DNA from: Actinosynnema sp. ALI-1.44
GTDB lineage: Bacteria > Actinomycetota > Actinomycetes > Mycobacteriales > Pseudonocardiaceae
Reading direction: 5' to 3'
NCBI RefSeq assembly: GCF_001984155.1
Contig: NZ_MTQO01000048.1
Location: 434,001 to 498,000, forward strand
DNA length: 64,000 nt
Shown here: one piece after another, positions 41,011-45,854 of the stretch
Layout of the letters: every line of letters starts with the position of its first letter
Position numbering within the stretch: the stretch's first letter is position 1
Notes under the pieces: model-generated
The model's input: only the letters and a program-made list of their open reading frames with translations
The model's database searches: none
Told to the model about the DNA's origin: nothing
Program-made: the position numbers and the translations under genes

Positions 41011-41053
41011 TCGGGGTGGCGGGATTCGAACCCACGACCTCTTCGTCCCGAAG
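41011..41053 (-). repeat. Attachment site remnant: 43-bp copy of the tRNA-Pro 3' half
   Basis: These 43 bases are identical to 45780-45822, which is the 3' half of tRNA-Pro(CGG) plus one base. Identity stops on both sides. The copy cannot form a full tRNA. It is the left attachment site of an element that entered the tRNA gene. Confidence 0.9.
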
Positions 41054-41147
41054 GCGATTAACCGGTCGCTGACCTGCTAAAGCTACTGGTCAGGGCCTGT
41101 CGCGGCGTCCATGCCTGTCTGGCTACGTCCGTAGTCGTCCGCTGTGA

Positions 41148-41435
41148 TTGTCAGGCAGTTTGTCAGGCATGCATCCGGCCGCCGCCGACGCCGTGCGCAT
41201 CGGCGACCTGTTCACGCCGGGCGGGCCCGCCGGGCACGCCAAACCGTGGCTCGACGCGTTCCAGAGTGCGGGCCGCCAGCTCGGTGACGCCGCTGCGGCT
41301 GGATACATGGGTCGTGGCCTGCGGGCGGTCATCGGCCACGTGGTGATCTTCCACTGGAACCGGTTTGGCCTGTCGGCCACGAGCCAAGGCGTCCTGGCTC
41401 GTGCAGCAGTCGAAGCCCTGCTTCCTCAGATCTGA
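41148..41435 (+). pseudogene. Fragment of a thiopeptide-type/LanB C-terminal domain protein
   Basis: The 95-residue reading frame ends with YMGRGLRAVIGHVVIFHWNR and ATSQGVLARAAVEALL. This is the C-terminal pattern of the thiopeptide-type bacteriocin biosynthesis domain found at the end of LanB-like dehydratases and in their split partners. The homologous part begins around HPAAADAVRIGDLF; the rest of the domain (about 200 residues) is missing. So this is a remnant of a ribosomal peptide biosynthesis gene cluster. No precursor peptide or other partner is found nearby. Confidence 0.55.
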
Positions 41436-41926
41436 CTACGACCCCCGCCACAATGGCTGCCGTCTTTACGTCACCGTCTGATGAAAAATCTGGTTGCCAG
41501 AACCGGGCCAATTGGATCAACCCCCTTGAGGGTACCTTAGTCTGGATAGTCGATTGCGTAGCTCCTAGCTGCGGTAGTAGGTTACGAATGTACCAAGATC
41601 ATGGGTGTGTTCTTAGGGGGATCTGCTCATTGCGGGGTGCGCGTAAACAGTCTTAATCCGCCATCGTCGAGCTAAGGCAAAGTTAAAGAGGGCGGTGTTG
41701 TCAGATTCTGTCGCGAATAGGGCGTTAGCTGACTGCTGGCACTGGGGAGTCCTGTTGCGCTGAAGTCCGGCCACACATCATGGCGGGCTTTATCATGCCC
41801 ACCCGGCCGTAGGTGCGCGCTAATTGTCGATACCGCCACTTTTCGCCCCCTGTGATTTCGGGGTTTCTTTGGCCTGCTCACTCCCTCTCATGAACAAAAC
41901 TCTCTTTTGTTGCGATTGGAGAGAAT
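41436..41926. other. AT-rich gene-free stretch inside the element
   Basis: About 490 bases with noticeably lower GC than the surroundings and no credible reading frame. The last 60 bases form the leader of the next gene, including GGAGAG close to its start. Confidence 0.55.
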
Positions 41927-42475
41927 GTGAGAAGACTAGCTACTTTAGTTATGACAGTTGCCGCGGTGTCCGCGTTCATGGGCGCCGGGACGTCCTCGGC
42001 AACAGAGACCACCGGCACTCGCTCACCGGGTTCGTCGCAACCGGAATTCTGTGCGACGCTGGTTGGTGCCGCCACGGCGTCCGACATATCGCCAACGCTC
42101 GCCGAGGCATGTTCGGAGACGTCAAGGGCGGACGCGGTCGACAAAATGCGGGCCGAAGCGTCACACCGTGGCATCACCGCTGTTGCGGACACACCCCTGA
42201 TGATCTGGTATGAACACGCCGACTACAAGGGCTTTTCCAACGTCATCTATGGCAACGCTGGACGATGTGACCGATCCGGGTACAAAATCAACCCCAACTC
42301 GTACTGGGCAGGGAACCTGTCGTCCATCGGAAGAGTCGACACCTGTGACAAGGCGTTTGTGTACAATACTCGAATAGACTTCACTGAGACGTATACGCTG
42401 TCGGTTCCGCTCCTGGGTGCCGGGCTCAATGACAACGTCGGCCGCGTGAAGGTCTTTTCCAGTTACTGGCCGTGA
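41927..42475 (+). CDS. Secreted beta/gamma-crystallin-like protein (peptidase inhibitor I36-like)
   Basis: This 182-residue protein has a signal peptide (residues 1 to about 25, ending SSATE). The mature C-terminal half (about residues 90-182) has the crystallin-like pattern of the Streptomyces metalloproteinase inhibitor family: MIWYEHADYKGFSNVIYG, then paired cysteines in AGRCDRSG and VDTCDKAF, YWAGNLSSIGRV, and a final LNDNVGRVKVFSSY. Such proteins are extracellular and bind calcium or proteases. The GTG start has GGAGAG three bases upstream, a short spacing. Base composition is lower in GC than the core genes, in line with transfer. Confidence 0.65.
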   Translation: MRRLATLVMTVAAVSAFMGAGTSSATETTGTRSPGSSQPEFCATLVGAATASDISPTLAEACSETSRADAVDKMRAEASHRGITAVADTPLMIWYEHADYKGFSNVIYGNAGRCDRSGYKINPNSYWAGNLSSIGRVDTCDKAFVYNTRIDFTETYTLSVPLLGAGLNDNVGRVKVFSSYWP

Positions 42476-42593
42476 GTCCCTCTGACTAGTCTGCCGTAAT
42501 CATGGTCGAGTATCGCTAACTGCGGGGGCATGCATCAGGTCCCTGGCCTCGTTCGGACCGAGGCAAGGGACCCGATGCCCTCCGGTGACCAGA

Positions 42594-44547: not shown

Positions 44548-44763
44548 TCACGTCGACCAACTGGTGAAGCACTTCCGCAAGCGGTATCCCGACGCCACCG
44601 AGGGATGCCGGCCCGCGTTCTTCCCGGTCGGGATCTTGAGTGTCTTCGCGATCTCCGGGACACCCTTGTCGCGTAGTACGCGGGCGAAGGTCAGCATGTC
44701 GTCGTCGATCACCTTGGGTCGGCCGCCGTGGTTGCCTTTGGCTGCGGCGGCTTGCTGTCTGGC
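44548..44763 (-). pseudogene. C-terminal fragment of a serine recombinase (resolvase/invertase)
   Basis: On the minus strand, residues GNHGGRPKVIDDDM, then ARVLRDKGVPEIAKTLKIPT and GKNAGRHPSVASGYR, match the C-terminal DNA-binding tail of serine recombinases (GRPxxIDDDxL...ARxLRxxGxSxxEIAxxL). The catalytic domain is missing: the similarity stops at about 44760, where it meets the fragment of a tyrosine integrase on the other strand. A recombination scar is the simplest reading. Confidence 0.7.
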
Positions 44764-45683
44764 CGAGATGACGAATTCGTCGCGTGCGTTACCAAGGCGT
44801 ACACGGGCATGCGATGGGGCGAACTCGTTGGCTTGGAGACCAAGTTCGTGCGGCCTGAGTCGATTCGGATTGAGTGGCAACTGTACGAACTGGACACAGG
44901 AGAGCTGCGTCGCTGTCCGCCCAAGGATGACAGCTATCGCGACATCGGTATCCCGGAGTGGCTGCGGAAGTTGATCATTGACCATATTGCGCGGAGTTCA
45001 CCGCAACCGTGCGTGTGTCACGACCAAATGTACGTGTTCCGCGGCCTTGGTCCGGCAAACAAGCCGCCCGTCGGCCAGGGGCGAAGCTCGTGGATGTCGC
45101 TCGGCTTGCGGGTGTATCGCCTGCCACTGTGTCGGCGGTGCTCAACCGACCTGCGACCGTCGCAGAGGGGACGCGGGGCGAGTTGAGGAGGCGATTGCTG
45201 ACCTCGGTTACGTGCGGGGAGCCAGTTCGGGCGAGCCAGCCGCGCATTGGCGGCGAAACGGGTTCGCCACGTGGGTCTTTCAACCTGCGGTGACTGGGTG
45301 GTACCCCGAAGAAGGCGCCGCAGGACGCGCGTCCCGTGCCCGTGCTGGCGGAACCCCTGGCCCGGTGTGCCAGCTCGTGGCGCCTACGGCCGAACAGAGG
45401 CCTGCTGGGGGCCATCGCGCGGGGGCTCACGACGCACGGGCTGCGCCACACCCACAAGACGCGAATGCGTGAGCTGGGTACTCCGCCGAAGTTGATGGAC
45501 GAGCGGATGGGACACGAGGACGGCAGTGTCCAATCCCGGTATGACCACATCACCCCGGAGATGCGGGTGCGGTTGATGGAGGGGCTCACGGCCGAGTGGG
45601 AAGTCGCTCTGGACGCCCGGCTGGCGATGTCTCCGCGCTCACCGGTCGTCGCACTGGACGAACTTCGCAAGGCGCGGGCGTAG
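44755..45683 (+). pseudogene. AICE-type tyrosine recombinase/integrase, disrupted
   Basis: Three pieces are recognisable. About 44755-45075 has RDDEFVACVTKAYTGMRWGE, the core-domain helix with the first catalytic Arg, and SYRDIGIPEWLRKLI. About 45245-45300 has HWRRNGFATWVFQPA. About 45300-45683 has the C-terminal catalytic block HGLRHTHKTRMRELG and MGHEDGSVQSRYDHIT, with the HxxR pair and the active-site Tyr. The pieces are in different frames and a LacI-like segment lies between the first two. The 3' end is 97 bases from tRNA-Pro, as usual for AICE integrases. It cannot give a full protein. Confidence 0.8.
45075..45245 (+). pseudogene. LacI-family DNA-binding domain fragment
   Basis: AKLVDVARLAGVSPATVSAV then LNRPATVAEGTRG is the LacI helix-turn-helix and hinge start; after a frameshift near 45180 the next frame reads RVEEAIADLGYVRGASSG, its normal continuation. 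Only the first 60 or so residues are present. The piece lies inside the broken integrase, so it was inserted, or the scar joined two genes. Confidence 0.75.
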
Positions 45684-45737
45684 GAAGCTGGAGAGTCGTT
45701 TTCAAGATCCACTCCCCCAGGCACGCCCCAGACAGCA

Positions 45738-45772
45738 AGAAGCCCTCCCTCCAAGAGGAGGAAAGGGCTTCT
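45738..45772 (-). terminator. Terminator of the intact tRNA-Pro
   Basis: AGAAGCCCT (45738-45746) pairs with AGGGCTTCT (45764-45772), and the bases between add CCTCC/GGAGG pairs. It lies nine bases downstream of the tRNA 3' end on the minus strand. Confidence 0.75.
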
Positions 45773-45780
45773 GACCAGCG

Positions 45781-45854
45781 TCGGGGTGGCGGGATTCGAA
45801 CCCACGACCTCTTCGTCCCGAACGAAGCGCGCTACCAAGCTGCGCCACACCCCG
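45781..45854 (-). tRNA. tRNA-Pro(CGG)
   Basis: On the minus strand the sequence begins CGGGGTGTGGCGCAGCTTGG and ends in CCACCCCGA. The acceptor stem (CGGGGTG/CACCCCG), D arm, T arm (GGGTTCGAATCCC) and anticodon stem (CTTCG/CGAAG) all pair. The anticodon loop TTCGGGA gives anticodon CGG, which reads the proline codon CCG. CCA is not encoded. The 3' half was restored by the element that inserted here; the original 3' half is at 41011-41053. Confidence 0.97.

Follow-up and report, generated by a model that had tools for sequence, protein, structure and literature searches.

Between the penicillin-binding protein gene ponA2 and a tRNA-Pro(CGG) gene of Actinosynnema sp. ALI-1.44, a segment of 4.73 kb adjoining the tRNA is bracketed by two copies of the tRNA's 3′ half, which raises the question of how this DNA arrived, what it is the remainder of, and how the genes around it came into their present order. 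We examined a window of 64,000 nucleotides, the whole stretch analysed (positions 434,001 to 498,000 of contig NZ_MTQO01000048.1; positions given below without a genome label are counted from its first letter), together with the corresponding site in related genomes. A preliminary description, from which we adopt the names ponA2 and metallophosphoesterase, had taken the segment for a single fossil integrative element. We consider it quite probable that the segment 41053-45779 is instead the remains of two unrelated actinomycete integrative elements that stood in tandem at tRNA-Pro(CGG) before the array collapsed, and that the block around it was inverted separately.

The bracketing sequence is an exact direct repeat of 43 nt with copies at 41010-41052, on the minus strand, and 45780-45822. 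The preliminary description had recognised both copies; its coordinates for the right one hold, and those for the left one (41011-41053) are off by one base. The repeat is the longest exact direct repeat of the window, the next longest being 24 nt, and in a whole-genome search at up to 3 mismatches the 43-mer was found only at these two sites of the 11.7-Mb genome. The right copy makes up the last 43 nt of an intact tRNA-Pro(CGG) on the minus strand, detected by both ARAGORN and Rfam (45780-45854 and 45781-45854, respectively); the core begins two bases ahead of the anticodon and takes in the rest of the tRNA up to its 3′ end. We refer to the right copy as the near and the left copy as the far attachment-site (att) copy. 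As in an actinomycete integrative and conjugative element (AICE), direct-repeat att sites stand at both ends of the segment and an integrase gene, though a broken one, lies beside the att site in the tRNA 3′ end.

The site was compared across a genus set of eight genomes, G000 to G007, in which G000 is the window's own genome and G004 is Kibdelosporangium aridum DSM 43828. Two exact cores are present in six of them (G000, G002, G003, G004, G006 and G007), separated by 4.7 kb in the window, 12.6 kb in G003, 13.2 kb in G007, 14.7 kb in G006, 29.3 kb in G002 and 40.6 kb in G004. The other two (G001 and G005) have one core; relatives with a single core copy and no insertion, which the preliminary description had called for, do exist. 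G001 is a clean empty site, where the match to 40854-41052 (83% identical) runs straight into the tRNA and the next homology begins at 47808 of the window. G005 is empty by core count and gene order only, its flank being without similarity to the four flanks tested (G000-G003). The integrase pseudogene beside the tRNA in the window (44743-45683, plus strand) lacks its first ~195 residues, shows at least three frame changes by eye, and is 71.6% identical at the nucleotide level to the intact integrase regions of G002 and G004; its pieces, in several frames, align to the intact integrases of these two genomes, and the open reading frame (ORF) at 45336-45683 carries a C-terminal Phage_integrase match, in agreement with the earlier report of a broken integrase at this place. 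Att-bracketed DNA that is present or absent among close relatives, with a disrupted integrase, marks the segment as a remnant, and the att copies, the relatives and the broken integrase support the earlier view of a decayed tRNA-integrated element with both ends preserved. The epithet "fossil" is right for the integrase; a sigma factor gene and its partner inside the segment are still open frames.

The two att copies are followed by different hairpins, each of which was folded against 200 shuffled sequences. The left hairpin (40955-41006, minus strand) reaches -31.4 kcal/mol (z -6.0) and the right one (45735-45774, minus strand) -26.3 kcal/mol (z -4.2), both beating 200 of 200 shuffles. At the empty site of G001, the left hairpin (~40958-41004 in the window) follows immediately after the tRNA, and in G002, G003 and G006 it comes after the outer (far) core copy. 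When five sequences were aligned, 4 of 36 predicted pairs had both sides changed with the pair kept, all four in this hairpin, and some pairs were broken or gapped in single sequences. Because it lies behind the tRNA in the empty G001 and behind far cores, and because its pairs covary, we take the left hairpin to be the tRNA's original terminator, as had been proposed. It belongs to a stretch (40843-41009) of chromosomal DNA originally downstream of the tRNA, 83% identical to and contiguous with the tRNA in the empty site of G001, which also holds an interspersed repeat. This repeat of ~100 bp, at 40845-40957 and 2786-2952, has 26 matches in the window's own genome (40 of 44 candidates scored); it is also found beside tRNA-Pro in several relatives, with repeated copies at 289838-290269 of G002. 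The hairpin behind the intact tRNA (45738-45772, minus strand) is a different, element-side terminator, again as first described: the near arm of G002 has a counterpart to the 66 nt that border the core, identical at 46 of them. That the element replaced the 3′ half of the tRNA, also claimed at the outset, follows from the topology and the arms, although the 43-mers are identical and sequence alone cannot show it.

The larger insertions in the genus set are of two kinds. Type II elements (G003, G006 and G007; 13-15 kb) encode an integrase of 395 aa in G003 and G006, the matching frame in G007 being only 188 aa; the G003 element encodes proteins with matches to Phage_integrase, HTH_17 and DUF3631, and one protein of G007 scores 23.0 bits against FtsK, for which the cut-off is 24. 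We call Type II the AICE type because an integrase with HTH_17, DUF3631 and FtsK-like matches constitutes the marks of an AICE. Type I elements (G002 and G004; 29-41 kb) carry an integrase with an internal LacI domain, whose gene lies beside the tRNA in G004 and ~3.4 kb away in G002, and the G002 element encodes proteins matching Prim-Pol, Zot and the three-Cys-motif partner family. The integrases of the two types are barely alike (best local match E 0.014), though the same core is used. At the far ends of both Type I elements (G002:C1:304739-306761 and G004:C21:1754218-1756240) a gene pair looks alike by eye; the pair of G002 has a match to the three-Cys-motif partner family and another, below the cut-off, to radical SAM mobile pair protein A.

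Against this background, the two ends of the remnant fall on different sides. We compared its arms, with the core removed, to those of the five larger elements by local alignment, with 500 shuffles for each comparison. The near end scores 255 against G004 and, over the 66 nt that border the core, 49 against G002 (0 of 500 shuffles each), and its scores against Type II (28 for G003, 36 for G007 and 33 for G006) all lie within those of shuffles. Conversely, the far arm (41053-41199) aligns in phase with the core to the Type II elements of G003, G007 and G006, at scores of 71, 75 and 54 (0 of 500 shuffles each); the Type I elements of G002 and G004 give 45 (17 of 500) and 30 (241 of 500). The idea of one single element, as first described, probably fails, the near end and integrase of the segment matching the 29-41 kb Type I and its far arm the 13-15 kb Type II. 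Since the two ends match different element types, we favour two fused elements over one. More than one element type stands between or beside the att copies, as in accretion, with a far-arm similarity that is modest (~70%). In G004 and G007, the DNA just beyond the far core resembles the near arms of Type II (0 of 500 shuffles in 5 of 5 comparisons) and not those of Type I; judged by these alignments the two flanks are array remains, and tandem arrays do occur at the tRNA-Pro site.

We propose that each element would have integrated by a tyrosine-recombinase crossover within the 43-nt 3′ half of the tRNA, keeping the tRNA whole and adding one 43-nt copy with every insertion, and that the array would then have shrunk by a deletion across the middle att site, the simplest route to the hybrid in the window. 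What would have survived on the tRNA side is the Type I end with the C-terminal 60% of the LacI-domain integrase, on the far side ~150 bp of the Type II AICE arm, and in between scraps of cargo with the open sigma factor pair. In a separate event, the block of far flank, tRNA, metallophosphoesterase and YqeY-like gene, element included, would have inverted at breakpoints in two intergenic spacers, bringing ponA2 beside the element; this order of events, too, is the one we think probable.

Several observations weigh against this reading. The ~70% similarity of the far arm extends over only 100-150 bp, and it could also stem from a third, unsampled element type that has such a far arm. The near-end match to G004 is mostly to the end of the integrase gene rather than to the arm itself. 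No middle att copy survives in the window, and the whole genome holds only two cores, as would be expected had the deletion removed a third. Among the ORFs of the remnant that were searched, only the integrase pieces and an ORF antisense to the integrase matched anything in the loci of the eight relatives. Finally, just five larger elements were available for comparison.

These points leave some room for just one element, of a Type I subtype absent from the sample, that inserted once and decayed in place, with a far arm that happens to resemble Type II or had recombined before insertion. At this site the genus offers no more than two elements of Type I and three of Type II, and beside the core there is little agreement between the near arms of G002 and G004 (score 26), so that arms vary within Type I. 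The far arms of these two Type I elements, however, agree well with each other (246) and not with the remnant, whereas the far arm of every Type II element aligns with that of the remnant, and does so in phase with the core. We therefore regard a single element as improbable, and retain the collapsed array of two elements as the account of the segment.

The gene order around the segment is a second departure from the relatives. The preliminary description had assumed an ancestral order of ponA2, terminator, tRNA-Pro and metallophosphoesterase, which a survey of 60 family genomes (the window's own counted) contradicts: ponA2 lies upstream of the metallophosphoesterase gene on the same strand in 54 of them, and the two genes are on opposite strands in three (G000, G004 and G029), the remainder being one genome without a ponA2 match at the threshold, one with the genes on different contigs and one with them 420 kb apart. 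The tRNA was on the downstream side of the metallophosphoesterase gene in all 20 loci read. From these two counts, the usual order is ponA2, YqeY-like gene, metallophosphoesterase and tRNA. In the window, the block of tRNA, metallophosphoesterase and YqeY-like gene, which also takes in the element and 167 bp of far flank, stands reversed between the flank of ponA2 and that of what we take to be an S9 peptidase gene.

Both breakpoints can be placed from the alignments with relatives. On the left, ponA2 (38315-40768, plus strand; Pfam Transgly, Transpeptidase and PASTA), which lies upstream of the metallophosphoesterase gene in most relatives, is followed by a terminator hairpin at 40781-40815 (-20.3 kcal/mol, z -5.3) homologous to the hairpin in the ponA2/YqeY spacer of G002, with which 40706-40821 aligns; the breakpoint, between ponA2-side and tRNA-downstream homology, falls at 40822-40842. 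The inverted block continues beyond the tRNA with the metallophosphoesterase gene (45876-46826, minus strand), a conserved tRNA neighbour that has a match in 99 of 100 genomes and stands beside the tRNA in each of the 20 loci, and with its third member, the YqeY-like gene (46902-47372, plus strand), which is beside the metallophosphoesterase gene in all 10 genomes of the tree set. The right breakpoint lies at 47373-47421, where a strong hairpin behind YqeY (47382-47414) has no convincing match in the eight relatives compared and may be a terminator that YqeY acquired once the block had inverted.

The same inverted order is found in G004, where the ponA2-side breakpoint lies inside the ponA2/YqeY spacer (~55 bp, compared with its sister G003). 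A tree of 10 genomes from ponA2, metallophosphoesterase and YqeY (3909 nt, rooted on G014) pairs G000 with G002 and G004 with G003, with support of 100 each; the node of G001 has a support of 62, which is without bearing on the independence of the inversions. Because G002 and G003, the sisters of the inverted G000 and G004, keep the old gene order, parsimony suggests two or more origins of the inversion within the genus, one in the window genome and another, independent one in G004. G007 has a different rearrangement, in which DNA matching 17673-35327 of the window is inverted beyond the far att copy and the S9 peptidase gene lies 49 kb on; the surrounding region (G007:C5:2091920-2163731) is rearranged in a complex manner, with an edge beyond the far att copy.

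Could the inverted order be an error of assembly? The assembly consists of 54 contigs, yet the inverted repeats within 40500-47500 are short (27 nt at most, 72-89% complementary) and none links the breakpoints, and the order recurs in the separate public assembly of K. aridum, with ponA2 and metallophosphoesterase opposite in G029 as well; we hold an assembly error to be very unlikely. Just as doubtful is an inversion made by the element's integrase on oppositely oriented att sites. A rearrangement edge stands at the outer side of the att site in three of the eight genus genomes, all three occupied, a link between occupied tRNA sites and rearrangement edges that is suggestive only and shows no cause. 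The breakpoint of the window, however, lies ~170-190 bp outside the 43-nt core, there is no core copy at the other breakpoint, and in G029, from another genus, the block is inverted with no further att copy present in 33 kb; the position of the breakpoint largely refutes an integrase-made inversion. The case of G029 also counts against tying the inversion to the collapsed array, since it means that inversion does not need an element. At G029:C1:5780450-5782240, similar hairpin-like sequences (~50 bp, 84%), inverted relative to each other, lie on either side of the inverted block of tRNA, metallophosphoesterase and YqeY. An inversion via the 113-bp interspersed repeat was considered as well and is not supported, none of the 26 matches listed (40 of 44 candidates scored) being located at the other breakpoint. 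Weakest of all, and scarcely worth entertaining, is the notion that the 43-nt copy arose by chance or by non-mobile duplication of a tRNA fragment, as tRNA fragments are sometimes copied by other routes, since the empty and occupied relatives, the integrase beside the tRNA and the matching element ends refute it.

The integrase of the Type I elements is unusual in itself. The intact proteins of G002 (502 aa) and G004 (514 aa) contain a LacI domain at residues 304-347 and 314-356 (PF00356, 9e-13 and 1.3e-13, respectively), followed by PF00589, and the pseudogene of the window keeps the LacI-type helix-turn-helix in the same place (45087-45179, plus strand; PF00356 E 3.3e-10). That this stretch of the remnant is a scrap of an unrelated gene was rejected, since G002, G004 and others have intact integrases in which it forms part of the reading frame. 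The layout of a LacI transcription factor, an N-terminal DNA-binding domain with a sugar-binding domain, was not found, the other Pfam matches of the G004 protein being integrase domains. A profile of the integrase matches solved LacI-family DNA-binding domains at positions ~305-357 and solved integrases elsewhere. The residues R, K, HxxR, H and Y, to which we assign catalytic roles, are invariant in 12 aligned intact relatives, as in ordinary (pSAM2-like) actinomycete tyrosine integrases; these tyrosine recombinase residues were scored in intact relatives only, the window's copy having lost its N-terminal part and changed frame. Unlike the ordinary integrases, those with the LacI-type domain have ~60 extra residues, which contain that domain and lie between the VFxG strand and the RR..F stretch; three other integrases of the window's genome lack them at this place.

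Relatives of this protein are spread beyond the genus set. They occur in 16 of 297 genomes in a family search, the window's own included; inspection by eye shows the LacI sequence at 15 of these 16 loci, and at the sixteenth the frame read starts after that place. ARAGORN found tRNA-Pro(CGG) at seven of these loci, tRNA-Pro with other anticodons at two, Val and His at one each and none at five. A wider contig search gave 256 candidate stretches, of which the best 80 were analysed: 71 have the strict LacI motif, another seven have it with a substitution (by eye) and two are cut short in the frame read, and the order box I, LacI motif and box II was recovered by pattern in 67. Among the 60 of these loci scanned for tRNA genes, 27 have tRNA-Pro(CGG), one Val, one His and 31 none. 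The plasmid collection yielded two matches (NZ_CP134608.1 and NZ_CP036456.1), both annotated as "LacI family DNA-binding transcriptional regulator", and the phage collection none. The window's own genome holds an open LacI-domain integrase at G000:C50:152944-154461 (L074), 75% identical to that of G004; the only tRNA found in 74 kb around it is a tRNA-Gly ~28 kb away, and the stretch 154300-160000 of that contig is involved in no exact direct repeat of at least 24 nt. We find the arguments evenly balanced on whether these proteins would form a distinct class of tyrosine integrase in several actinomycete genera, in which the LacI-type domain would be a working module within the catalytic domain, either repressing its own gene or binding a site in the arm that resembles an operator, the nearby tRNA would mostly be tRNA-Pro(CGG), members would be hidden where annotated as LacI regulators, and the tRNA-Pro site shared with unrelated AICEs would be an edge of repeated chromosomal rearrangements. 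Either role of the domain, arm-site binding or self-repression, is a guess.

The remaining contents of the remnant are mixed. Abutting the truncated integrase is the tail fragment of a serine recombinase (resolvase; 44575-44745, minus strand), at most 83.6% identical to sequences in 112 plasmid records, annotated as "recombinase family protein" in seven of eight plasmid rows listed and without a Pfam match. The open frame of an extracytoplasmic function (ECF) sigma factor (43718-44344, minus strand; Sigma70_r2 1.9e-14, Sigma70_r4_2 2.2e-13) overlaps by 4 nt that of a CU044_5270 family protein (42594-43721, minus strand; NF038083, 135.2 bits against a cut-off of 100), whose best relative in other genomes is 52% identical and which, going by the overlap, is likely the partner of the sigma factor. 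An ORF of 182 aa with a signal-like N-terminus by eye (41927-42475, plus strand) has no family match in Pfam or NCBIfam scans and matches in eight of 100 genomes, its own included, with at best 38% identity outside its own; neither it nor the CU044_5270 gene has a close copy among 100 relatives. The C-terminal part of an ORF (41148-41435, plus strand) is a fragment from the end of a thiopeptide-type bacteriocin biosynthesis domain (TIGR03891, positions 201-262 of 263; 39.2 bits at E 7.3e-10, where the curated cut-off is 48.45). No replication gene (RepSA, RepAM/DUF3631 or Prim-Pol) and no FtsK/SpoIIIE-like transfer gene was found among nine element ORFs in Pfam and eight in NCBIfam; relatives at the same site have replication genes, DUF3631 in G003 and Prim-Pol in G002.

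Collectively, the genomes of one genus allow a single tRNA integration site to be compared in its empty, occupied, tandem and collapsed states, along with what appear to be at least two independent inversions of the neighbouring block. The filing of LacI-domain integrases as LacI regulators in two plasmid records means that element searches based on annotation may miss members. The literature matches listed contain no description of a LacI-domain integrase, most subscription papers being outside the search, and nothing on this locus as to site, genus, accretion or inversion; the word "LacI" does not occur in the main text of PMC8138268, nor "inversion" in that of PMC9513070. Passages of PMC3218068 already describe AICEs that occupy tRNA genes and carry gene sets of this kind, as well as tandem arrays, and passages of PMC9513070 describe accretion, decay, remnants and empty sites of AICEs at a Streptomyces tRNA site. 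Like the AICEs of those passages, the elements considered here have a tyrosine integrase beside a tRNA 3′ end and use the tRNA 3′ half as att core, and intact relatives at the site carry DUF3631 (RepAM) or Prim-Pol together with an FtsK-like gene; the window remnant differs in having no replication or transfer gene among the ORFs scanned and a broken integrase. With the Streptomyces case, as the main text of PMC9513070 presents it, the locus shares one tRNA site with differing integrases, several elements between direct repeats, remnants and empty sites in sister strains, whereas in the window the ends of two element types are joined in one short remnant and the surrounding block is inverted. 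Overall, the locus is of a known kind, a well-preserved case of known processes with two twists, the repeated inversion of a block and the LacI-domain integrase.

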